From: Spirochaetaceae bacterium
GTDB lineage: Bacteria > Spirochaetota > Spirochaetia > Treponematales > Rectinemataceae
Direction of reading: 5' to 3'
Length of the DNA: 32,554 bases
NCBI GenBank assembly: GCA_025356015.1
Contig: JANXYO010000046.1
Span: forward strand, 1-32,554
Positions 7,901 to 19,092 of this stretch are shown piece by piece. The notes beneath the pieces were generated by a model. That model ran no database searches. It saw only the letters and a list, made by a program, of their open reading frames with translations, and was not told the origin of the DNA. Positions within the stretch are counted from its first letter, which is position 1. Each line of letters opens with the position of its first letter. The translations under genes and the position numbers were made by a program.

Positions 7901-7925
7901 AGTCCGATTTGGCCGCGAGGAACAA
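7896..7925 (-). promoter_or_regulatory. candidate promoter of the XPB-like helicase operon
   Basis: On minus: TTGTTC (7925-7920), 18-base spacer, TACAAT (7901-7896). The -10 box ends 9 bases before ATG 7886, implying a leader of 0-3 bases. Its -10 overlaps that of the divergent cyclase promoter, so the two may compete. Confidence 0.45.
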
Positions 7926-7959
7926 TACGCGGCGAGCTTTCGGAGAATGGAGTACAGAA

Positions 7960-9723
7960 TTGCCTAGGCCAGGCCCGAACGACCGTCACGATCTGCCCAA
8001 ATTCTCAGTCCTGAGAGTCATGCTGTCGGGACTTCTCCTCTTCCTCTGCATTTCCGCCTTTTTCGGCATCTTCTTCGTCCTCTCTGACGCGATCAAGCAG
8101 GAACTGCGCGGGGCCCTCCCCCCGCCTTTCGATTTCGGGGGAGCCGGGAGGCATTCCTTCCTGGACCTCTCCGTCCTGGCTGTCCTTGCCGGGCTCATCG
8201 CCTCCCACATCTACCACGCCCCCCTCATCGGCTTCTTCCGCTCGAAGCGGCGGGGCGAGGAGCCTTCGAAGGAACTCGCCGACCTCGCCAGAAGGCGCAT
8301 CTTCAAGTCGCCCATGGTCACTGCCTTATCGGTGCCTGTCCTCCTCGTGCCCCTTGCCCTCCTGCGTCTCCTCCTCGACCCCGGGGCCTCGGGCCTCCAG
8401 GGTTTCATGGCACCAGTCGAGTTCTCGGTGCTGGTCCTCTGCTCGGTGTTCACCCTCCTCTGGCAGAGGCACAGGGTTCAGTCCCTCTATCTCCCCCGGC
8501 TTTTCACAAGGGACGAGCTCGCTCTCTCGATCCCGGGTGCCCACCGCACCAGGATCAGGGCGAACTTCTACCTCGTGATCGCGCTATCGACCCTCCTGCC
8601 CATCCTCATCGTGGGTCTGTTCCTCGGCACGGCGATCAGCTGGGCCGGCACCTCTCCCTCCTTGAGCCCCGAAGCCCATCGCCTCCTGTTCGGCAGCCTC
8701 AGCAGCCCGGGGGGCCGGGCCGAGCCTGGTGTTTCCGGGATCCCCGGTATGGCAGGGATTGAGGCCCTCCCCGCGATCGCCCACCGCGAGCTCATGGTGG
8801 AATCCCTCCCCGTCCCCTACGTCGCGCCCCTGGACGTGCTTCGCATCGTGGCCGGCCTCGGCCTCGGCCTGTCGATGATCGTCGTCTACGTCTTCTTCAT
8901 CGCGCGTTGGACGGCCTCCGACATCATCGACCCTGTCGTCCTCCTGCGCTCGAATGTCGACAAGGCGAAACAGGGCGACCTGACCGCCCTGACCCCGGCC
9001 GTCGCGGCGAACGAGATCGGCGACCTCACCGTGGGCTTCAACGCCATGCTGCGCGGCATAGCCGAGCGGGAGCGAATCAAGGTCCTCTTTGGCCAGTACC
9101 TGACCAAGGAGATCTCCGAGGCGATAATCGAAGGCAAGGTCAGGCTCGAGGGTGCCCGATACGAGGCCACAGTGGTCTTCAGCGACATAAGGGATTTCAC
9201 GACCATGTCCGAGCGCATGGCGCCCGAGGAGGTGTTCGCCTTCCTGAATGACTACCTGGGCCGGATGATAGAGGTCATCGCCGCCAGGGGAGGCATCATC
9301 GACAAATTCCTCGGCGACGGGATCCTGTCGGTCTTTGGCGTGCCCATTGCTTCCGACCACCACGCGGCCGACGCCTTCGCCGCAGCCCTGGACATGCGTG
9401 CCAAGCTGGCCCTGCTGAACGCCGAGCGCTCTGGGCGTGGCCAGGAGGCCGTGAGGATCGGAATCGGCATGCACACGGGAGAGGTCATCGCCGGCAACGT
9501 GGGCAGCGCCCTCAAGCTTCAGTACACTATCATCGGGGACACTGTGAACCTCGCCTCGAGGATCGAGGGGCTGAACAAGGGCTACGGGACCGATCTGTTG
9601 ATGAGTGGCGCGACCCGCTCCCGCCTCGGCACGGCCGGGGCCCAGGGCCTCGGACTCCTTGAGACGGCCATGGTGCGCGGCAAGAGCGAAAAGGTGGATA
9701 TCTGGAGCTTTTCGGAATCCTGA
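7960..9723 (+). CDS. membrane adenylate cyclase, class III, with HAMP domain
   Basis: Makes cAMP from ATP at the inner membrane. I start it at TTG 7960 because GGAG (7949-7952) lies 7 bases upstream; the earlier in-frame TTG 7909 lacks one. In the resulting 587-residue numbering, six membrane segments are visible (about 15-42, 67-91, 118-138, 150-168, 203-225, 290-315). A HAMP domain (about 322-373, QGDLTALTPAVAANEIGDL) follows, then a class III catalytic domain. The metal aspartates are Asp409 (FSDIRDFT) and Asp453 (DKFLGDGIL). Purine-selecting Lys449 and Thr523 (YTIIGDTVNLASR) indicate adenylate rather than guanylate cyclase, and Asn530 and Arg534 are the transition-state residues. The catalytic set is complete. 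It is monocistronic, divergent from the helicase operon. The signal it senses is unknown. Confidence 0.92.
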   Translation: MPRPGPNDRHDLPKFSVLRVMLSGLLLFLCISAFFGIFFVLSDAIKQELRGALPPPFDFGGAGRHSFLDLSVLAVLAGLIASHIYHAPLIGFFRSKRRGEEPSKELADLARRRIFKSPMVTALSVPVLLVPLALLRLLLDPGASGLQGFMAPVEFSVLVLCSVFTLLWQRHRVQSLYLPRLFTRDELALSIPGAHRTRIRANFYLVIALSTLLPILIVGLFLGTAISWAGTSPSLSPEAHRLLFGSLSSPGGRAEPGVSGIPGMAGIEALPAIAHRELMVESLPVPYVAPLDVLRIVAGLGLGLSMIVVYVFFIARWTASDIIDPVVLLRSNVDKAKQGDLTALTPAVAANEIGDLTVGFNAMLRGIAERERIKVLFGQYLTKEISEAIIEGKVRLEGARYEATVVFSDIRDFTTMSERMAPEEVFAFLNDYLGRMIEVIAARGGIIDKFLGDGILSVFGVPIASDHHAADAFAAALDMRAKLALLNAERSGRGQEAVRIGIGMHTGEVIAGNVGSALKLQYTIIGDTVNLASRIEGLNKGYGTDLLMSGATRSRLGTAGAQGLGLLETAMVRGKSEKVDIWSFSES

Positions 9724-9776: not shown

Positions 9777-9804
9777 TTGGCCATTGACGATGGAAGGAGC
9801 AGCA

Positions 9805-10881
9805 ATGAAACGTAGCCTGTGCATGACGATCATCCTGATGGTCCTCGCAGGAGGGGCGGGAGCCCAGATCTCCCTCGCCCCGCTCAACGATGATTTCGGC
9901 GTCCTCATGAAGAGCGTTGGCTCGGACATCGCCCCCCAGCTCCTGCAAACCGCCCTTTCCGGCGATATCGTCGGCGAGGCCGCCTTCTATGGGAATGGAC
10001 CGCTTGGCAATATCACCTTCCTGGCCACGGGGGCCGATTTCGGGAATGGAATAGCCACTATCCTGAACAATAGTTCCCAGACCTGGAAATTCACCCTACC
10101 CATGCCTTCACTTATGTCCCAGGCCCTCGGCTCGAGCTTCTACGACTCGACGAGGACCAGCTTCCCCTACCCCGTCATGGCCCTTGGAGTCGGCTTCAGG
10201 CCGGTCAGGGACATCGAGGTACTCGTCAGTGGCTTCTACCTTCCCCAGGCCCTCATGGATTCCGTGGTCTCCCTCGAGCCGACCATGAAGAAGCTGAGTC
10301 CCACACTCACGGTGGGAAGCATCGTCGTGAAGGTGAGGAAGGTCCTGTTCAAGGACGATGGTGCCTTCCCCGCGATGTCGATCGGGCTCGGAGCTGCCTA
10401 CGCCGGATTCTCCATGGGCGCGACAGTGGCTAGCTTGAACGACATAGGGGGCCGGGTCGACCTCGGCGGCGGCAGCAAGCTTGACCTCTCGGGTAAGTTC
10501 GGCCTCGACACGAGGGTCTACGCGGCCGGCCTCGAGTTCCACGTCTCCAAGCGCCTGCCTGTGGTCACGCCCTTTGCCAAGCTCGGCCTCTGGTATCGGG
10601 ATGCCGTGGTCACCTCGGACACCAACCTCACCGCGACCCTCTATCCCCCCGCCCCGGCAACCAAGACGGTGCAGAAGATCGTCGCAGGCCCCAAGGCCGA
10701 GGACCAGGCCATAGCAGCCATTGCCACGGCCGGCCTTGAGATCAGGATCTTCGCCGTCATCATCCACTTCTCGGCCAGCCTCGACATGGAGAACCCGATG
10801 GTGAATCTTGGAAACCTCAGCCTCAAGGACATGAAGACCAACGGCTTCGCGGTGAGGACCGGAGTCAGGCTCTCGCTCTGA
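9805..10881 (+). CDS. probable outer-membrane beta-barrel protein, unrecognised family
   Basis: A 358-residue exported protein of unknown function. ATG 9805 is chosen for the strong GGAAGGAG at 9792-9799 and because it gives a clean signal peptide, MKRSLCMTIILMVLAGGAGA, with probable cleavage before Gln21. The mature part has many short alternating segments with glycine and aromatic residues (FPYPVMALGVGFRPV, AMSIGLGAAYAGFSMGATVA, PFAKLGLWYRDAVV, FAVIIHFSASLDM) and ends in VRTGVRLSL, all fitting a small beta-barrel. No enzyme motif is seen. It is followed by an intrinsic terminator and preceded by its own -10 box, so it appears monocistronic. It could also be a soluble periplasmic beta protein. 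Confidence 0.75.
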   Translation: MKRSLCMTIILMVLAGGAGAQISLAPLNDDFGVLMKSVGSDIAPQLLQTALSGDIVGEAAFYGNGPLGNITFLATGADFGNGIATILNNSSQTWKFTLPMPSLMSQALGSSFYDSTRTSFPYPVMALGVGFRPVRDIEVLVSGFYLPQALMDSVVSLEPTMKKLSPTLTVGSIVVKVRKVLFKDDGAFPAMSIGLGAAYAGFSMGATVASLNDIGGRVDLGGGSKLDLSGKFGLDTRVYAAGLEFHVSKRLPVVTPFAKLGLWYRDAVVTSDTNLTATLYPPAPATKTVQKIVAGPKAEDQAIAAIATAGLEIRIFAVIIHFSASLDMENPMVNLGNLSLKDMKTNGFAVRTGVRLSL

Positions 10882-10998: not shown

Positions 10999-11026
10999 AG
11001 GGGGCTGCCCTTCCGGACAGCCCCCT
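10999..11026. terminator. hairpin between convergent genes, possible terminator of the minus operon
   Basis: AGGGGGCTG (10999-11007) pairs with CAGCCCCCT (11018-11026) around a 10-base loop. It lies 32 bases downstream of the stop of the minus-strand lipoprotein gene at 11058. The downstream T tract is poor on both strands (GTTATTTC on minus, TTGTTC on plus), so termination would be weak or factor-assisted. Confidence 0.55.
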
Positions 11027-11057: not shown

Positions 11058-12593
11058 TCAGGAGGGCGTCGCCGGTCCGATCAGCAGGACCGAGTATCCG
11101 CCTTCTCCCGCGACCCTGAGGTAGATCTGCCCCAGGGACACAAAGAACGACAGACTGCCGGGCTTGGAAGGCAGCCCGGCGTAGAAGGGGACAAAAGCCC
11201 AGGCCACGTTGCCCGAACCCGTCGAGGTGAAGGTCATCGGGACCTGATTCTTGAATGCAAAAAGGTTGCCGGCATCATCGAGGGCAGCTGCGTATGAGTT
11301 CGGGCCATCGACGAAAGCGGCCACTGCCGTGGCGGCGCTCCCGCCCATGCTCAGCGCGGTGCTGCTGCCGGGAGTACCGTCGGCTGCCGCGACGGCCGTC
11401 GCAAAGAGGCCCAGATCGGTTCCCGCGTACAGGACAGGGCTTGATAAGCCGCCATCAAGGGCAAGCTGCCCGACTGTCGCGGCCTTGCCACCGGAACTGA
11501 ACTGAAGGGTTTTCGCCGTCCCCGAGAGGACGTCGGTGAACCAGGTCTCGAAATCGGTGGAATTGATATCGCTGCCACTGCGGTTGAAGAGGCCCAGGGC
11601 CGATGCGACATAGATGAATTTCGTGGTGCTGGTGGAGAAGCCGCCCGCCCCAGACTGAACAATAGCAGTGACGAGGTCCTTGGTGATCTTGTTCACCAGG
11701 TCGAGGTTGGCCCCCGTGAGGTTGGAAAGCAGGTCAAAGCTGGTCCAGCCCGCTGTGGAAGTCGATGAGGAAAGGTTCGAATAGCGGATGCCGAGGTCCT
11801 TTCCCTTGCCAAAATAGTAGACGAGGAGGCTCGGCGGGCCGCCAAGGGACGCGACGATGGCCCCCGATGCGACGGCGTTCGCACCGAAACCGGTCGAGAC
11901 GGCCGAAAGGCTTGTATGTGAAGGATCAAGCCTGACTAAGCCTTGGCTCGTGTTGAGCCAGACCTCGTCCCGGAAACTCGCCGAGATGTCAAACCAGAGG
12001 CCCTTTGACAGGGAGGACACGGTATAGGCGGCCGTCGAGACGCTCGTCCCGTCGCTGCCCTTGAGGAAAGCCCCCTCGAGCCAGTAGGAGTTGGCGCCAA
12101 TCGTCAAGGTCACAGAGGGGACCGTCGTCGGCGTCTGGGCAAGGAGGGCCGGAGCGAAGTACTGGATCCCCAGGTTCTGGGTGGTGAAGACCCCCGCAGC
12201 GACGGTGAAGGTCCCCGTCTCGCCAAAGTAGAGGGTCTGCCAGCCGCCCACGGTGGTTCCAAGAGCGGCCCGGATTTTGTAGCCAGAGGTCGGCGGCAGG
12301 TCGAGGGTGATCGTGTTCGCATCCGAACCGCCCGAGCTCGCGCTCAGGTTGGCCTGGAAGTAGTCGAGATCTCCCGACTGCTTGAGGAAGGAGCCGTTGA
12401 GCTCGATGTACAGCCGGATCGCGGTGACCGCTCCATTGCCCGCCGTATCGAGGACCTTGGCAGCACCGCCTCCCGCGATGAGGTTCCTTGGCACCGTTAT
12501 CGTGACGTGGCCCTGGGCTGGTGCCTCGAGGGTGCAGGTGGCGAGAATGAGCGCGGCGGCCGCGGCCGCCAGGACTATCGCAAGTTTCTTCAT
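11058..12593 (-). CDS. large secreted lipoprotein, unrecognised
   Basis: A 511-residue lipoprotein of unknown function, last gene of the envelope operon. ATG 12593 is chosen because GAGGAGG, overlapping the stop codon of the preceding fecR-like gene, lies 6 bases upstream; the GTG at 12608 is part of that region. The signal peptide, alanine-rich, ends in LILATC (lipobox Cys20). The mature region begins with a beta-type segment (HVTITVPRNLIAGGG) and then has repeating stretches such as VLYAGTDLGLFATA, FIYVASALGLFNRSG and ILVYYFG-like strands that suggest a beta-propeller or similar repeat fold. No catalytic motif was found. Cotranscription with a FecR-domain protein and a barrel protein suggests a surface or periplasmic structural partner. 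Confidence 0.72.
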   Translation of the reverse strand: MKKLAIVLAAAAAALILATCTLEAPAQGHVTITVPRNLIAGGGAAKVLDTAGNGAVTAIRLYIELNGSFLKQSGDLDYFQANLSASSGGSDANTITLDLPPTSGYKIRAALGTTVGGWQTLYFGETGTFTVAAGVFTTQNLGIQYFAPALLAQTPTTVPSVTLTIGANSYWLEGAFLKGSDGTSVSTAAYTVSSLSKGLWFDISASFRDEVWLNTSQGLVRLDPSHTSLSAVSTGFGANAVASGAIVASLGGPPSLLVYYFGKGKDLGIRYSNLSSSTSTAGWTSFDLLSNLTGANLDLVNKITKDLVTAIVQSGAGGFSTSTTKFIYVASALGLFNRSGSDINSTDFETWFTDVLSGTAKTLQFSSGGKAATVGQLALDGGLSSPVLYAGTDLGLFATAVAAADGTPGSSTALSMGGSAATAVAAFVDGPNSYAAALDDAGNLFAFKNQVPMTFTSTGSGNVAWAFVPFYAGLPSKPGSLSFFVSLGQIYLRVAGEGGYSVLLIGPATPS

Positions 12594-12604
12594 GGTTCGC
12601 CTCC

Positions 12605-13324
12605 TCACGGCCCGGTGACCGTTATGACGATGCCGCTGCGGGCTGCCTCTGGCGGCGGGCCCCCGGGGGCCCGGCCTGTGGCGGCTTCGCCTGTGCCCTG
12701 GGTGGCATGGGCTCCCGTGTCCAGGGCGAAGAAGAGCTGGAGCGAGGCCTCCTGGCCGGGAGAGACCGCCACACCGTTTGCGGCATTCGCGCTGTCGATG
12801 TTTGTCGCTCCCTCGAAGCCCGATGTGGCTCCGCCGCCTTCGGCCTCGCGTGTGGGCCTACCCGGCACGAGGACGACGACGCCCTCGCTCACGCGGAGAT
12901 AGAAGCCGTCGAAACCGAACTCGGTGCCGCGCACCGATGCCGTCGAGTAGGGGCTCTGCACCTTGTAGTCCTGGGGCGTGCCGGGCACCGTCGCCTTGAC
13001 GCTCGCCTGGACAGCCCCGACGCGCAGAAACATGGTGGCCGAGACGCTACCCGACTGCTCGAACAGCTTGTCGAGGGTGAGACGGGTGAGGGGCTTCACG
13101 ACGATCTTCGACTTGTCGATGAGGATCGTGGCTGTCGAATCGAAGCCGGTGGAGATTGTCGTCTTGAGGTCAACGGTCATGCCGTTTGTGGCGGCTGTCC
13201 AGGCGCCACCGTCTGGCTTGACCTCGACCTTGCCCTTGAGACCGGAGAGCACCGCCTGCGTCGCGGCACCGGCCGTCGATGCGAAGATCAGAATCGCCAG
13301 AATGGAAGCAGCTAGCTTCTTCAT
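12605..13324 (-). CDS. secreted FecR-domain protein
   Basis: A 239-residue protein with signal peptide MKKLAASILAILIFASTAGA and a FecR domain (about 25-155). Diagnostic features are the opening GLKGKVEVKPDGGAWTAATN, the region STATILIDKSKIVVKPLTRL, and the YSTASVRGTEFGFDGF segment typical of FecR. Here the domain follows a signal peptide instead of an inner-membrane anchor, so it is not a classical anti-sigma regulator. Such stand-alone FecR proteins are often encoded near CHASE2 cyclases and surface proteins. The C-terminal 70 residues are low-complexity, rich in Gly, Ala and Pro. AAGGAG lies 7 bases before ATG 13324. It is 12 bases after the barrel gene and 11 before the lipoprotein gene. 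Confidence 0.86.
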   Translation of the reverse strand: MKKLAASILAILIFASTAGAATQAVLSGLKGKVEVKPDGGAWTAATNGMTVDLKTTISTGFDSTATILIDKSKIVVKPLTRLTLDKLFEQSGSVSATMFLRVGAVQASVKATVPGTPQDYKVQSPYSTASVRGTEFGFDGFYLRVSEGVVVLVPGRPTREAEGGGATSGFEGATNIDSANAANGVAVSPGQEASLQLFFALDTGAHATQGTGEAATGRAPGGPPPEAARSGIVITVTGP

Positions 13325-13336
13325 CCTTTCGCTCCT

Positions 13337-14689
13337 TTACATATGCAGGGTGATTGCCAGGGTCGCGGCCATTTGCAGTTTCGAGCCGACATAGTCGGAG
13401 TCGAAGGCGCCGCCGGGAATGAAGGCCCCAATCGAGCAAGATACATCGAGGTCGGAGAAAATTCCATAAAGTGCAGTTATATCGACTTCACTACCCAGGT
13501 AGGCCGAGGTCCCGCCGGCCTTGAGTCCCGGCTCAGAGATGGGGCCTGAGCTGGGGCGCAGGAAGGTCATGAGCTTCGCGCTGCCAGTGAGTCCCGCAAG
13601 GAAGAGATCCTTCTCCGAGGCCGAAGCCTGGATGAACACGAGGTTCGCGAGGTAGGGCGAGAAGACGACGCCTAGGGTGCTTCGGGTGAGGGGGGTAAAC
13701 CGCTTGTAGGTCGAGGCGGCGTTCCCTTCCACGGGCCCGGTCGCGTCCGCGTCTCCCGAGGCGAAGATGAACCTGAACCCGGCCGTGCCGTTCAACAGGG
13801 CAATGGGGTACTGGAGGTCGAAACCCGCCAGGACCGACGAGATGGGCGCAAGCTGGTAGGAGTGCCCGCCGGGGGCCGCGGAATCCGGAAGCCAGGACAG
13901 GATCCGGCCCGAGCCGTAGGTGAGGAAAGTACTGTACGAGAGCGACTTGATGGAACCGGCCAGGGTAAAGCCGAAGTACTGGGTGTCCAGGGCTCCGCCC
14001 CCGTCGGCCTTGAAGTTCGTGCTTCCCGTGGCGATGAAGTCGGACTGTTTGTTGAGGTCGTTCTGGACGAGGGCCGACAGGGAGAGACTCTGACCGTAAA
14101 GGCGGGGAAGATCGAGACGGGCCGAGCCAAGAAGGCGACGCGAGCCGAAGAGCTCGCTGTCTGCCGAGGAGCGGGCCTGATCGGCCATGGAAATCGTGAA
14201 GGGCGAGGTGGCCAGGAAAAGAAGTCCTGTATAGGCGGCGCCGAAGGTGAAGGTTGCGCCGGGGTAGGCAAACTCGAGGGAAACGGCGTCGACAGGGGCA
14301 GACACGATGTAGGAACTCGGGTCGGCGAAGTCGAAACGCCCGGCCTGGAGGACAAAGGAATCCATTCCGGCTCGGGGCTGCTTCAGGGCCAGGGTGAACT
14401 TGAGAAGCTGGATATCGTAGCCCAGGAGCTTCGTCGTCCCGCTTGCGGGGATGTTGAGCTGGAGGAAGCCCGAGCCGCGCAACTCGGCCTTGCTGCCCAT
14501 GGGGAGGACGAAGTTGGGGGAGAGGGTGCTAGACTCGGAGAAGCCGGAAATGGCGTAGTTCGCCGAGTTCTCGGTGTTCGTGATGGAGGCCGCCTCCCGC
14601 AGGTCGGCGCCATATTCCTGCCCCAGCACAAGGGTGGGAGCGAGAAGGACGAGGAGGACGGCTATGATGGAAGCGCTTGTCCTTTTCAT
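13337..14689 (-). CDS. probable outer-membrane beta-barrel protein (spirochaete type)
   Basis: A 450-residue exported protein, function unknown. The signal peptide is MKRTSASIIAVLLVLLAPTL followed by VLG, with cleavage before Gln24. The mature part is a series of amphipathic strands with aromatic ends and turn-forming Gly, Asn and Asp residues (ALKQPRAGMDSFVLQAGRFD, FGFTLAGSIKSLSYSTFLTY, AGFDLQYPIALLNGTAGFRF, LQMAATLAITLHM at the C-terminus). The -FVLQAGRFDF- segment recalls porin-like proteins that orient along the membrane normal. Translation is coupled to the upstream small gene by an ATGA overlap (14689-14686). It shares an operon with the FecR protein, which may bind or assemble it. The family assignment is inference from sequence texture. 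Confidence 0.78.
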   Translation of the reverse strand: MKRTSASIIAVLLVLLAPTLVLGQEYGADLREAASITNTENSANYAISGFSESSTLSPNFVLPMGSKAELRGSGFLQLNIPASGTTKLLGYDIQLLKFTLALKQPRAGMDSFVLQAGRFDFADPSSYIVSAPVDAVSLEFAYPGATFTFGAAYTGLLFLATSPFTISMADQARSSADSELFGSRRLLGSARLDLPRLYGQSLSLSALVQNDLNKQSDFIATGSTNFKADGGGALDTQYFGFTLAGSIKSLSYSTFLTYGSGRILSWLPDSAAPGGHSYQLAPISSVLAGFDLQYPIALLNGTAGFRFIFASGDADATGPVEGNAASTYKRFTPLTRSTLGVVFSPYLANLVFIQASASEKDLFLAGLTGSAKLMTFLRPSSGPISEPGLKAGGTSAYLGSEVDITALYGIFSDLDVSCSIGAFIPGGAFDSDYVGSKLQMAATLAITLHM

Positions 14690-15138
14690 TGCGTGCCTCC
14701 CTTCAGGTCGAGGGCAAGGCGCAAGATCCTGAGCGCCTCGTCACCGGCGATGGCCCTTTTTGGGCCCCCGCTTGCGTTGACAATTCCGCGGGCGACGAGC
14801 TCCCTGTAGCCATAGCGAAGGCCGGGGAAAAGGGAGTACATGACGCCGCCTTTGAGACCCAGGCCACGCATCACCAGGAGGCAGTACTCGTCCAGCAGGA
14901 TGGGCGCTTCGGCGCTCCGGGCATCGGCGAGCCAGCCCTTGGCCTTGAGGGTCGCGAAGGCGTCGTCGAGGGTGGCATCCTCGCCGATGAGTCCTCCGGC
15001 GTTGAGAACCATGTACGCGGACGAACCTATCTGAGCCTTCTCCTGCGCGAGCAGCTCGTCTACAGCAGCATTGGATTGGGCGAACGCGGGAAACGTGGCC
15101 GCGACCATCGCGAAAATCAGCGCTAGTGGAATCCTCAA
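14686..15138 (-). CDS. small secreted helical protein, first gene of envelope operon
   Basis: A 150-residue exported protein of unknown function. I start it at TTG 15138: AAGGAG (minus 15152-15147) lies 8 bases upstream, whereas the GTG at 15147 overlaps that Shine-Dalgarno. The signal peptide then reads MRIPLALIFAMVAATFPAFA, with cleavage before Gln21. The mature part is helical. It ends in a segment, GYRELVARGIVNASGGPKRA, followed by GDEALRILRLAL, that loosely recalls S-layer-homology-type helices (YRELVARGIV ... EALRIL); I would not assign the family. It overlaps the barrel gene by ATGA, so the two products are probably made together. It diverges from the CHASE2 cyclase. Confidence 0.7.
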   Translation of the reverse strand: MRIPLALIFAMVAATFPAFAQSNAAVDELLAQEKAQIGSSAYMVLNAGGLIGEDATLDDAFATLKAKGWLADARSAEAPILLDEYCLLVMRGLGLKGGVMYSLFPGLRYGYRELVARGIVNASGGPKRAIAGDEALRILRLALDLKGGTQ

Positions 15139-15179
15139 GATGAGCACTCCTTATTAGATGGAAATGACGTCTCTTGAAG

Positions 15180-15187
15180 TCTATAGT
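15180..15187. promoter_or_regulatory. candidate overlapping divergent -10 boxes, envelope operon and CHASE2 cyclase
   Basis: TATAGT on plus (15182-15187) and TATAGA on minus (15185-15180) overlap almost fully. The plus box lies 42 bases before the cyclase ATG. No clear -35 is seen for either, so an activator may be needed. The geometry would let one event control both units. Confidence 0.35.
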
Positions 15188-15229
15188 TGTCCGGTGCAGC
15201 ATTCAACTGTTTTCGCCAAGGAGCCCCGC

Positions 15230-17941
15230 ATGAAAGTGCGATTCCGCCCAGAACTCGCGATTCCGGCGGCAATTGTCCTCGTTTTTGTGCTGCTCAGCCT
15301 TTTTGGACTCACGGCCGCCCTTGAGAATAGACTCTACGACCTCCTCCTGGCCGCCAAGCCCGCCCCCAAAGAGGATAAATCCCTTCTGCTCGTGGATTTC
15401 GACGACAAGTCGGTTTCAAAAATCGGGACCTGGCCCATCTCGAGGGAGATAATGGCCGATTCCATTATGCTTTTGCGCGAGGCGGGAGCCCGCTACGCTG
15501 TGTTCGATATCGAATACCTGAACAAGAGCCCCAGGGGAGTCAACAGCGAGGTCCTGACCCGGGAAATACCCGAGAACTTCTCCTCCGAGTTCGGCGCGAT
15601 AGGCGAAAACATGAAGCAGCTCGTCGACGCCTTTGCCCAGGGAAATATCCCCTTGCGGGATGCGGGAAGCTATGTCGGCGATTTCAGGAGCCAGGTCCTC
15701 GCGGGGGCCCAGAGCAGGCTCCTCTCCCAGGTGGAGAGGATCGCGCGCGACAACGACGAGTATCTCGCCGAGGCTGTCCGCTTTTTCGGGAGCGCCTTCC
15801 TCACGGTCAACCTACAGGATTCCCGGGACCCGAACATTCCCGATGAGGACCGCAAACTCGCCGTGAAGAATTTCGCCCTCAGGAACCTGAGCTGGAGGGG
15901 CAAGCTGCCTCCCTCGAAAGCGGAGCTCCTGCCCGCGATCCAGCCAATCTCCCCCGCCGCCAAGGGACTCGGCTTCACCAACGTGGTCATCGACTCGGAC
16001 GGGGTGAGAAGGAAGATAGACCTTCTTGGACGCTACGGGGACGCCTGGTTCCCCCAGCTCGCCTTCGGACCCCTCCTCGACTGGATGGGCAACCCAGCGA
16101 TCACGGCGACTCCCAGGTCGATAAGCCTGAAAGGGGCGCGCTTCCCCGACGGCATCGTCAGGGATCTGCGCATCCCCCTTGATCCCGACGGCAGGCTGAT
16201 CATCAACTGGCCCCACAAAAAATACGGGGACAGCTTCCGCCACCTCTCCTTCCTCGACCTCATCAACCACAAGGAGAACCTCGACAACCTGGTGTATGCC
16301 CTGAAGAACCGCGACGGCTGGGGCTATTTCAGCTTCTACGATGGAGAGAAACCCCTGCTCGACCAGTACAAGGAGGCCGAACTCCTGCGTGAGGCGATCA
16401 TGACGGGCAAGGAAGGGAACCAAAGGGTCGCGGACTACCGCGCCATGCGCGACCGCTTCCTCTCCGAAATCGGGAAGTTCCTGGACACGAAGCCAGAGGA
16501 CAAGATCGCCGCCGCGGTCGCCTCCGTCCTCAAGGACCCCAAATCCTCGAAGGCCATCAAGGACCAGTACCGCACCATCGGCGCCGACGCTCCCGAGTAC
16601 TTCAAGGGCCTTCGCGCCGTCTACGCCGAGCTCGAGCGCATCCGCAAGGGCGTCATCGCCCAGGCCGAGGGCTCCTTCGCTGTCCTTGGCTGGACGAGCA
16701 CGGGCTCCACCGATATCGGCGTCAATCCCTTCGACCAGGGCTACGCCAATGTCGGCACCCATGCGGCCGTCGCCAACACGATAATCAACCGAGACTTCAT
16801 CGACGCGGTGCCGGCATGGGGCTCGGCCCTCGCCGCCATCCTCCTCACTGCCGCCCTCCTCCTGCTGCTCCAGAACACCAAGCCCGCGGTGACCCTCGCG
16901 GCCGGAGCCGGGGCGACCATTTCCATCCTGGTCCTCGGGGCCCTCGCCTTCATTGTCACGGGAATCTACATGCCCCTCCTGCCCCCCCTGGGCTCGATCT
17001 TCTTCACCTTCCTGGCCCTCACGGCCATCCAGTTCCTCAAGACCGAGCGCGAGAAGGGCTTCATCAGAAACGCCTTCTCCCACTACCTCTCCGAGGAGGT
17101 CATAAAGACCATCGTCGGCGACCCCAACAAGCTCAAGCTCGGCGGGGAGCTCAGGCAGATGACGGCTGTCTTCACCGACATCAAGGGCTTCTCGACGATA
17201 TCCGAGAAGCTCGGCCCCGAGGCCCTCGTACACCTACTCAACGAATACCTCACTGGCATGAGCGACCTCATCCTCGACCTCGGGGGCACTATCGACAAAT
17301 ACGAGGGCGACGCGATCATCTCCTTCTTCGGCGCTCCCCTTAACCTGCCCCGTCACGCCCTCATGGCCTGCCAGGCAGCGGTGCGCATGAAAGCCAAGGA
17401 GGCCGAGCTCAACGCCCGATTCCTCGAAACCGGTATCGCCCCATCGATGCTGCTCACGCGTGTGGGCATAAACACCGGCGACATGGTCGTCGGCAACATG
17501 GGCACCATCAAGAAGATGAACTACACGATCATGGGCGACTCCGTGAACCTGGCCGCCCGCCTTGAGGGTGTGAACAAGCAGTACGGCACCTGGATCTGCC
17601 TCTCCGAGAGCACCAAGAACGAGGCCGGCGACGGCATCATAGTGCGCAAGCTCGATAGGATCAGGGTCGTCGGCAAATCCCAGCCCATCCGCATCTTCGA
17701 GCTCATCGCCGAGAAGGGAGGCCTTTCGGCCAGGCGGGCCGAGGTCCTCGGCCTCTTCGAGGAGGCCCTCGGCCTCTTCGAGTCCAGGGACTGGAACGGG
17801 GCCGCGGGCACGCTCAAGCGGGTCCTCGCCCTTGATCCCGAGGACGGGCCGAGCGCGGTCTATCTGGACCGCATCGCCAAGTACAAGAAGTCGCCGCCGC
17901 CGCCTGACTGGGACGGGGTCTTCAACCTCACGGCCAAATAG
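15230..17941 (+). CDS. CHASE2-domain adenylate cyclase
   Basis: A 903-residue class III cyclase with an extracytoplasmic sensor. ATG 15230 is chosen for AAGGAG at 15218-15223, 6 bases upstream. Order: membrane anchor (about 8-30), a long CHASE2 domain (about 45-525; opening SLLLVDFDDKSVSKIGTWPI and closing NVGTHAAVANTIINRDFID, both typical), three membrane segments (about 530-602), class III catalytic domain (about 635-820), and a helical TPR-like C-terminus (about 825-903). Catalytic residues are present: Asp650 (FTDIKGF), Lys690 and Asp694 (DKYEGDAI), Thr766, Asn773 and Arg777 (YTIMGDSVNLAAR). Lys/Thr indicate cAMP production. CHASE2 is longer than usual, with a charged helical insert at about 360-500. 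It faces the FecR/barrel operon and its 3' end overlaps the nuclease gene by 82 bases. Confidence 0.94.
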   Translation: MKVRFRPELAIPAAIVLVFVLLSLFGLTAALENRLYDLLLAAKPAPKEDKSLLLVDFDDKSVSKIGTWPISREIMADSIMLLREAGARYAVFDIEYLNKSPRGVNSEVLTREIPENFSSEFGAIGENMKQLVDAFAQGNIPLRDAGSYVGDFRSQVLAGAQSRLLSQVERIARDNDEYLAEAVRFFGSAFLTVNLQDSRDPNIPDEDRKLAVKNFALRNLSWRGKLPPSKAELLPAIQPISPAAKGLGFTNVVIDSDGVRRKIDLLGRYGDAWFPQLAFGPLLDWMGNPAITATPRSISLKGARFPDGIVRDLRIPLDPDGRLIINWPHKKYGDSFRHLSFLDLINHKENLDNLVYALKNRDGWGYFSFYDGEKPLLDQYKEAELLREAIMTGKEGNQRVADYRAMRDRFLSEIGKFLDTKPEDKIAAAVASVLKDPKSSKAIKDQYRTIGADAPEYFKGLRAVYAELERIRKGVIAQAEGSFAVLGWTSTGSTDIGVNPFDQGYANVGTHAAVANTIINRDFIDAVPAWGSALAAILLTAALLLLLQNTKPAVTLAAGAGATISILVLGALAFIVTGIYMPLLPPLGSIFFTFLALTAIQFLKTEREKGFIRNAFSHYLSEEVIKTIVGDPNKLKLGGELRQMTAVFTDIKGFSTISEKLGPEALVHLLNEYLTGMSDLILDLGGTIDKYEGDAIISFFGAPLNLPRHALMACQAAVRMKAKEAELNARFLETGIAPSMLLTRVGINTGDMVVGNMGTIKKMNYTIMGDSVNLAARLEGVNKQYGTWICLSESTKNEAGDGIIVRKLDRIRVVGKSQPIRIFELIAEKGGLSARRAEVLGLFEEALGLFESRDWNGAAGTLKRVLALDPEDGPSAVYLDRIAKYKKSPPPPDWDGVFNLTAK

Positions 17942-19092
17942 GCGGGTCCGCGCTGCGCCACGCGCAGCGCGGCTTCGCGGGCCAGGCCCGCCGCGAGCCC
18001 AGATTCGAGGACGAGGCATATTGGCAGGTGGTCGGAATAACCTGTGGACGAGGAACTCGACCATGGCAGGGGCCTGCCTTCCTTGTCCAGGAGAAAGGCC
18101 GAGTCGAGGACGGAGAAGGACGAGTAGCGAAGGCGGCTGCCTGCCCCCTGGGCGGCCTCGGGGCCCACCAGGAGGCCGGGGGAGAGCAGAAAGCCGTCAA
18201 TGCGCTCCCTCACGCCTGCATAGGCGTAGCTGAATCCCCGGGATTCGCCCCAGGGGCTATAGAGCACCGCCTCCCCGGTCGGGGAGCCCGAGCTTTCCCT
18301 GTCTGTGCTGACGAGGAGCCGCGGTAGCCCGGCACCCGCCCCGGCCTCGAGGGCAGGCATGAGGGCCGTGGGGTAGAGGCGCCCGACACGGGGGTACTCG
18401 TCGGGGCTCTCGTTGAAGTCGCCGCAGACCACTACGGCGCCATGGCCCTCGGCCGTCCTTTGTGAGACGATTCCCCCGACCAAGGCAGCCGCCTCCCGTC
18501 TCGCCTGCTCGGTGGGGGCGGCCCCCTCGAGCTTGGACTTCCAGTGGCAAAGAAGGACTACAAGCTCTCCTGCGTCGACCGCAAGCTCGGCCTCCAGGAT
18601 GTTCCTCCCCGGGCGCACTGCGCTCCCCGGCTCGGACGCCAGGGCGTGGGCCCTGACGCCACGCACCGGCAGGCGGGTGAGTATGGCGCTGCTTATCGGC
18701 GAGCCTTTGGTCGAGGCCATGATCGCCGTGGTGTAGCCCGCCTTCTTCAAGGGGCCATTGCGCAGGGCCTCGAGGACCCCGGCATTCTCGATCTCAAGGA
18801 GGCAGAGAAGGTCTGGGCCCTTGTTCCCCAGCTCGGGAGGGGCGACCGCCTCGGCGAGGCGGGCAAGACGGAGATGGTAGCGCGATTCGTCCCAGGCGCC
18901 GCCCCGGACCGAGAACTCCGGGTATTCCCCTCCCTGGTCGGTGGCGTCGAAGAGGTTCATCGCGTTGTACGAGACTATCGAGATCCTTCTCATGGCCCCC
19001 GGACCGAGGCCCGAGCAGGAGGAACAGGCAGAGGACAGGAAGGAAGTCGCGATGACCGCCGCCAGGGCGGCCAGCTTGGGAATGGCGGGCAT
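17860..19092 (-). CDS. endonuclease/exonuclease/phosphatase-family lipoprotein
   Basis: Predicted metal-dependent phosphoesterase of the DNase I-like (EEP) fold, acting in the periplasm or at the surface. The 410-residue product has a signal peptide ending LSSAC (Cys23). Family signatures are VSYNAMNLFD (40-49, Asn43), LLCLLEIEN (95-103, catalytic Glu100), HWKSKLEG, VVVCGDFNESPDE and the C-terminal YSDHLPI, which carries the Asp-His pair. GGAGG lies 7 bases before ATG 19092. After SDHLPICLVLES, where family members usually finish, about 47 more residues are encoded; the last 27 codons are antisense to the end of the CHASE2 cyclase. That tail is probably a stop-codon loss or 3' extension rather than a domain. 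The substrate (DNA, RNA or phospholipid) is unknown. Confidence 0.88.
   Translation of the reverse strand: MPAIPKLAALAAVIATSFLSSACSSCSGLGPGAMRRISIVSYNAMNLFDATDQGGEYPEFSVRGGAWDESRYHLRLARLAEAVAPPELGNKGPDLLCLLEIENAGVLEALRNGPLKKAGYTTAIMASTKGSPISSAILTRLPVRGVRAHALASEPGSAVRPGRNILEAELAVDAGELVVLLCHWKSKLEGAAPTEQARREAAALVGGIVSQRTAEGHGAVVVCGDFNESPDEYPRVGRLYPTALMPALEAGAGAGLPRLLVSTDRESSGSPTGEAVLYSPWGESRGFSYAYAGVRERIDGFLLSPGLLVGPEAAQGAGSRLRYSSFSVLDSAFLLDKEGRPLPWSSSSSTGYSDHLPICLVLESGLAAGLAREAALRVAQRGPAYLAVRLKTPSQSGGGGDFLYLAMRSR
17948..17972 (+). terminator. perfect 11-bp hairpin just after the CHASE2 cyclase stop
   Basis: CCGCGCTGCGC (17948-17958) pairs perfectly with GCGCAGCGCGG (17962-17972) around a CAC loop, 7 bases after the stop. 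A second inverted repeat, GCGGGCC/GGCCCGC (17977-17991), follows. There is no T run, so it would be a weak or Rho-assisted terminator, or an RNA-protecting 3' hairpin. It lies inside the coding region of the opposing nuclease gene. Confidence 0.4.

Follow-up and report, generated by a model that had tools for sequence, protein, structure and literature searches.

Organization of the locus and its control region

The analyzed window is the whole 32,554-nucleotide stretch of DNA, which is part of a 4.17-Mb spirochaete draft genome (contig G000:C71). On its minus strand, four genes run from position 15138 to 11058 and encode, in this order, an S-layer-homology (SLH) like protein, an outer-membrane beta-barrel, a secreted FecR-domain protein, and a large lipoprotein. 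Their divergent plus-strand neighbor encodes a CHASE2 class III cyclase. The initial annotation had described a four-gene exported-protein operon divergent from a CHASE2 cyclase, and we found all five genes present and tightly arranged. The SLH-like and barrel genes overlap by 4 nt, as do the FecR and lipoprotein genes, and a gap of 12 nt separates the barrel gene from the adjoining FecR gene. A terminator-like hairpin with a 12-bp stem, recognized by pattern match only, lies downstream of the operon on the same strand (10999..11026). The Pfam scan matched three domains in total across the five proteins (FecR, CHASE2, and Guanylate_cyc) and returned no match for the SLH-like, barrel, and lipoprotein products.

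The SLH-like and cyclase genes are separated by a divergent control region of about 91 bp (15139..15229). Overlapping -10 candidates had been claimed for this region. A promoter scan scored TATAGT on the plus strand (15182-15187), but the opposed minus-strand TATAGA is weaker, lacking the final T, and no minus-strand promoter was called in the region. It was noted that a TATA element lies at the same place in relatives, and that overlapping opposed -10 elements score at least 10 of 12 in 22 of their 27 divergent regions, compared to a mean of 13.2 and a maximum of 19 in mononucleotide shuffles. In the window the claim is weak, and the idea that overlapping -10 elements distinguish it was rejected, as the strict test does not support this.

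Additional genes were recorded on both sides of this block. A HAMP-domain class III cyclase (7909-9723, plus strand), for whose N-terminal half no relative was found in the fetched loci, lies directly upstream of another protein (9802-10881, plus strand) that is predicted to be exported and may be a small barrel. Relatives of the latter were encountered in four close genomes (L065, L067, L068, and L245, in G009, G017, G018, and G030), and three of the four share a contig with the module, near its lipoprotein end, forming an extended neighborhood. An endonuclease/exonuclease/phosphatase-family ORF (17860-19092, minus strand) converges on the CHASE2 cyclase gene, sharing 82 bp with its 3' end. 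In L065, a relative of this ORF adjoins the cyclase.

A divergent SLH protein and an AlgE-like barrel

The first gene of the operon (14686..15138, minus strand) begins with a TTG start codon after an AAGGAG Shine-Dalgarno site, in a reading frame open to 15147, and encodes a 150-aa protein with a signal peptide. An SLH relationship was suspected from the sequence pattern ahead of the fold search. No Pfam SLH match was obtained among 21 family members and nothing significant was found against PDB sequences, so that a fold search was needed to identify it. The AlphaFold2 model, built with 21 relatives (pLDDT 91.9), matches the SLH fold, which consists of helical repeats around a core bundle. Its best 14 PDB matches were all SLH proteins (SpaA, Sap, and an S-layer cytochrome; Z 9.8-11.6), and the next unrelated chain reached Z 3.8. 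Against SpaA and Sap, 111-125 residues were aligned at Z 10.7-11.6 and rmsd 3.1-4.0. The initial annotation had recognized this gene and the export of its product, but "helical protein" was an unspecific label: judged by its predicted fold, which only a fold search could bring into view, it is a divergent SLH protein. Few genomes of the phylum encode SLH domains of the classical Pfam type (34 of 393); the divergent family is the commoner form there (175 of 393).

The arginine of the TRAE-type ligand motif in SLH domains binds pyruvylated wall polymers. Within the SLH-like family, hhalign pairs repeats 2 and 3 in register (P 1e-6), and both align weakly, in the expected register, with classical SLH (P 0.003 and 0.0002). 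The positions aligned with TRAE read LLDE in repeat 2 and AGDE in repeat 3, a comparison covering these two repeats, as repeat 1 could not be aligned. Because the arginine is lost in the aligned repeats, wall binding is doubtful. The motif is also not conserved in the OmpM of Negativicutes, which binds polyaminated peptidoglycan instead (PMC10628300), and with this precedent the SLH-like protein may still possibly bind the cell wall.

The second gene (13337..14689, minus strand) encodes a predicted outer-membrane beta-barrel with a signal peptide. Its AlphaFold2 model, built with 61 relatives (pLDDT 93.2), has 18 strands. The best fold match was the alginate exporter AlgE (Z 33.2, TMq 0.71), followed by OprD-type porins and MOMP (Z about 27) and OmpM1 (Z about 18). 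Although AlgE is the closest fold, no Pfam match was obtained at E 0.1.

The FecR protein and the CHASE2 cyclase

The third gene (12605..13324, minus strand) encodes a FecR-domain protein (PF04773; 31 bits against a gathering cut-off of 24, E 3.5e-7). Its signal peptide, with no further hydrophobic segment, agrees with the earlier proposal that this FecR protein is soluble. Eight window proteins around it were scanned and gave no sigma-factor or TonB-receptor match; for a soluble protein with no such match nearby, the role of an anti-sigma partner to a neighboring ECF sigma factor and TonB receptor was rejected. A profile search returned no solved structure related to the module FecR family. 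The protein ends in a C-terminal beta-strand tail (...GIVITVTGP). Module FecR C-termini consist of a variable linker followed by a short alternating hydrophobic strand, with further examples including TATVIITIQ, GSVNVTVNW, and ARVNVNLVWP, and stretches with at least 5 beta-formers per 7 residues were found in 39% of 75 module FecR tails versus 5% of linker windows. Among the other FecR proteins of the window genome with readable ends, no such terminal pattern was seen, with one borderline case (L038); this last comparison carries no statistics. The conserved tail is a candidate contact surface.

Other FecR-domain proteins were noted along the way. One in the window genome (L037, G000:C13:17362 region) is fused to a long C-terminal part that resembles an outer-membrane barrel and is unrelated to the module barrel by HMM, making it a natural FecR-barrel fusion. 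Another (L103, G000:C105:5835-10518) is a membrane-anchored protein of about 927 aa, encoded directly downstream of a class III cyclase that has no Pfam CHASE2 domain. Among 22 module FecR proteins, hits to the Leptospira "surface adhesin Lsa33" model were obtained for 20 and to LipL45 for 12; the window protein's own hit to the adhesin model is far below the cut-off. This suggests that the Lsa33 and LipL45 adhesins contain FecR-type domains.

The divergent cyclase gene (15230..17941, plus strand) encodes 903 aa, with the ATG at 15230, preceded by a Shine-Dalgarno AAGGAG (15218-15223), preferred over the ORF start at 15158. An N-terminal transmembrane helix is followed by an extracytoplasmic CHASE2 domain (Pfam 1e-31), further transmembrane helices, a Guanylate_cyc domain (1.4e-17), and a C-terminal tail. 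The CHASE2 domain had been described as very large, and this was upheld, with about 490 residues outside the membrane and two inserts (residues ~101-180 and ~341-480). The occupancy of these inserts is 83-100% in module CHASE2 domains, compared to mostly 16-50% in six other CHASE2 cyclases, and they are likewise candidate contact surfaces. The other type of CHASE2 cyclase, seen in five loci (L096-L100), had no FecR gene within 5 kb in the fetched flanks. The sensor is joined to a class III domain with its catalytic residues present, comprising the two metal-binding aspartates, the Lys/Asp substrate pair, the asparagine, and the arginine (D650, K690, D694, D770, N773, and R777). The position of D770 is Asn in most relatives, so the nucleotide specificity, and with it the assignment of cAMP as the product, is not certain.

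Conservation and co-inheritance across Spirochaetota

Two locus sets were assembled. The first was chosen by cyclase similarity only, with flanks of up to 8 kb fetched; 31 of its loci had enough flanking sequence and a long (full-length) cyclase of the module type, and in 20 of these the genes for SLH, barrel, and FecR all lie within 3 kb. The second came from an SLH-family search of the 393 genomes, which added 40-odd loci, drawn from many families, where the three genes again lie together. Once the short duplicates L104 and L105 are removed from the 83 loci, 81 distinct ones remain across the phylum, and 79 of these hold the complete SLH/barrel/FecR trio; the other two run into a contig end. 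The CHASE2 cyclase lies within 3 kb of the trio in 45 of the 64 loci that have 3 kb of room on both sides. A narrower SLH alignment, used in a contig profile search, returned 41 loci all recorded as spirochaetes or Treponema; this search used a single narrow peptide pattern and does not imply restriction to the phylum.

The layouts of these loci differ. The divergent arrangement is commonest, co-directional ones start with FecR or SLH (for example FecR-SLH-barrel-cyclase), and convergent ones also occur, while a distant lineage (L213) has SLH-FecR-barrel-cyclase in one direction. Gene order has therefore been remade while the gene set stayed together. In the window genome, a second module (C1) has the same divergent layout, and the two copies each of the SLH and barrel families are all located at the two modules. 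A CHASE2 domain is encoded in 173 of the 175 genomes with the SLH family, compared to 264 of 393 overall, in counts that ignore kinship; the two SLH genomes without it are incomplete drafts (83 and 91%).

The initial annotation had envisaged a conserved block of five genes and had made conserved adjacency its own test. Adjacency is clearly present phylum-wide, in several gene orders and in paralogous units, but the block is smaller than envisaged. The SLH protein, the 18-stranded AlgE-like barrel, the FecR protein, and the CHASE2 cyclase form the conserved core. The fifth gene (11058..12608, minus strand), encoding a large lipoprotein with the lipobox LATC and no Pfam family, is accessory: homologues are limited to the nearest relatives plus a handful of others, about 11 of 81 loci (one weak), and the second module of the window genome lacks the gene. 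It was accordingly rejected as a core part.

Among 53 loci with all four proteins, distances to CHASE2 correlate at 0.83 for FecR, 0.89 for SLH, and 0.85 for the barrel, although such distance-matrix correlations (r 0.71-0.89) are inflated by shared phylogeny. Paralogous modules are better evidence of co-inheritance. In three genomes with two modules (G009, G018, and G045), the four proteins of each module cluster in all four trees with those of the corresponding module elsewhere, rather than with those of the sister module in their own genome. The barrel, SLH protein, FecR, and CHASE2 cyclase are thus one inherited unit across Spirochaetota, and this co-inheritance could also reflect shared regulation.

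The neighbors common to loci with the trio only are mostly unrelated genes and some large GLUG-repeat proteins. In L118 and L120, the trio without a cyclase lies alongside a large GLUG-repeat exported protein, and L121 and L130 carry proteins of more than 1000 aa without a Pfam match.

A possible trans-envelope signaling route

The most economical reading of this module, in which we infer each step, is a signal that would pass from the barrel/SLH complex through FecR to CHASE2 and so to cAMP. It has precedents in the Sinorhizobium barrel NsrA, placed upstream of CHASE2 cyclases (PMC7529298, PMC13001267), and in the FecR linkage on record for CHASE2 proteins elsewhere (PMC9239204, PMC5192318). 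As a mechanism of trans-envelope signaling with an outer-membrane sensor, we consider it evenly balanced. The compartments are assigned from signal peptides, the barrel fold, and family knowledge. The SLH protein, made in translational coupling with the barrel, would sit on it or bridge it to peptidoglycan, as a split OmpM attachment porin. FecR would read the state or ligand occupancy of this complex and contact CHASE2, perhaps with its C-terminal beta-strand tail extending a sheet of the partner, and the contact would change the cAMP output of the cyclase. The cAMP could be read by the many cNMP-binding proteins of the genome, in which 26 cNMP-binding domains were counted, and the lipoprotein would be an optional partner. 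Barrel assembly, which had been proposed as the reported signal, is one option among several, including attachment, stress, and ligand.

A different reading of the same proteins, possible though on the unlikely side, casts the barrel as a receptor at the surface or a channel for solutes, and FecR would relay its occupancy to CHASE2, with the SLH protein as a periplasmic adaptor and no sensing of wall attachment. It draws on Sinorhizobium, where the NsrA barrel and CHASE2 cyclases sense an external protein (PMC7529298, PMC13001267), and is consistent with the pore-like, AlgE/OprD-like barrel and with the ligand arginine lost in the aligned SLH repeats. However, the SLH protein and the barrel are kept with equal strictness and form a single chain in L126, features that suit an attachment function as well.

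The divergent genes and their common control region could also mean that the barrel, SLH, and FecR genes are expressed under cAMP control; their products would then be effectors in transport or envelope maintenance and not sensors. The FecR gene SMc02177 is indeed a cAMP-Clr target in Sinorhizobium (PMC5498481). We regard such an output cluster as improbable, as convergent layouts have no shared promoter, and the matched protein trees of paralogous modules together with the subtype-specific CHASE2 inserts point to physical partners. An envelope housekeeping operon (a split OmpM-type tether) kept beside the cyclase by old synteny, without a functional link, would explain why the trio and cyclase are apart in about a third of loci, but it is very improbable, as adjacency with repeated re-arrangement, phylum-wide and in paralogous copies, is unlikely without selection.

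Comparison with known systems

The linkage of FecR and CHASE2 is not new. That these genes often occur together had been noted in the initial annotation, is already published for CHASE2 cyclases in Campylobacterota (PMC9239204), and is conserved genetically in the module loci as well. FecR genes are also linked to CHASE2 histidine kinases in Burkholderia (PMC5192318), and with both outputs on record (PMC5192318, PMC9239204) the linkage follows the sensor and not the output domain, which indirectly favors a FecR-CHASE2 contact. We found no description of the spirochaete SLH/barrel/FecR/CHASE2 module in the open-access literature. Earlier records of FecR with CHASE2, from several phyla, came with no mechanism; the outer-membrane half is now identified and conserved across the phylum, giving a defined four-protein set to test, with the FecR tail and the CHASE2 inserts as concrete candidate contact surfaces.

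The Campylobacterota clusters resemble the module in having a CHASE2 adenylate cyclase clustered with a FecR-domain protein, there called an outer-membrane protein. However, they include a phosphodiesterase and a TPR protein, and neither an SLH protein nor a separate 18-stranded barrel has been described in them (PMC9239204). The LysM-FecR/CHASE2 histidine kinase operon of Burkholderia and Pseudomonas also couples a FecR envelope protein genetically to a CHASE2 sensor, and its partner carries a wall-binding domain (LysM). Its output is a histidine kinase and response regulator, LysM and FecR form one chain, and there is no barrel (PMC5192318). In the NsrA/CyaD1-CyaD2-CyaK system of Sinorhizobium meliloti, an outer-membrane beta-barrel acts upstream of CHASE2 adenylate cyclases (PMC7529298, PMC13001267). 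NsrA is likened to the window barrel by role; it is much larger, with its barrel at about residues 600-1200, and no SLH partner is described.

AlgE shares the 18-stranded barrel fold as the best structural match. The window barrel differs in having 13-15% identity to it and no Pfam match, and no polysaccharide synthesis genes were seen in the window operon.

Spirochaetes are counted among the Gracilicutes. OmpM, which combines an SLH domain and an outer-membrane barrel, was reported to be common among diderm Terrabacteria and wholly missing from Gracilicutes (PMC10628300). In OmpM the two parts form one polypeptide, whereas in the window they are encoded by two overlapping genes; a single ORF with a signal peptide, SLH, proline-rich linker, and barrel, and so with the OmpM plan, was found in one spirochaete locus, L126. 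OmpM1 carries one SLH repeat per chain, trimerized, on a porin barrel (PMC10628300), in contrast to the multi-repeat soluble SLH protein encoded apart from an 18-stranded AlgE-like barrel in the window, where TRAE is also lost in the aligned SLH repeats and FecR and a cyclase are attached. A bolder and doubtful extension is that spirochaetes have a hidden, split SLH-barrel attachment system wired via FecR to CHASE2 cyclases, with cAMP reporting the connection between outer membrane and wall. The SLH-fold/barrel pair, once fused, is in any case placed in a phylum of the Gracilicutes, and it is relevant to the ancient divide that has been proposed for outer-membrane attachment.
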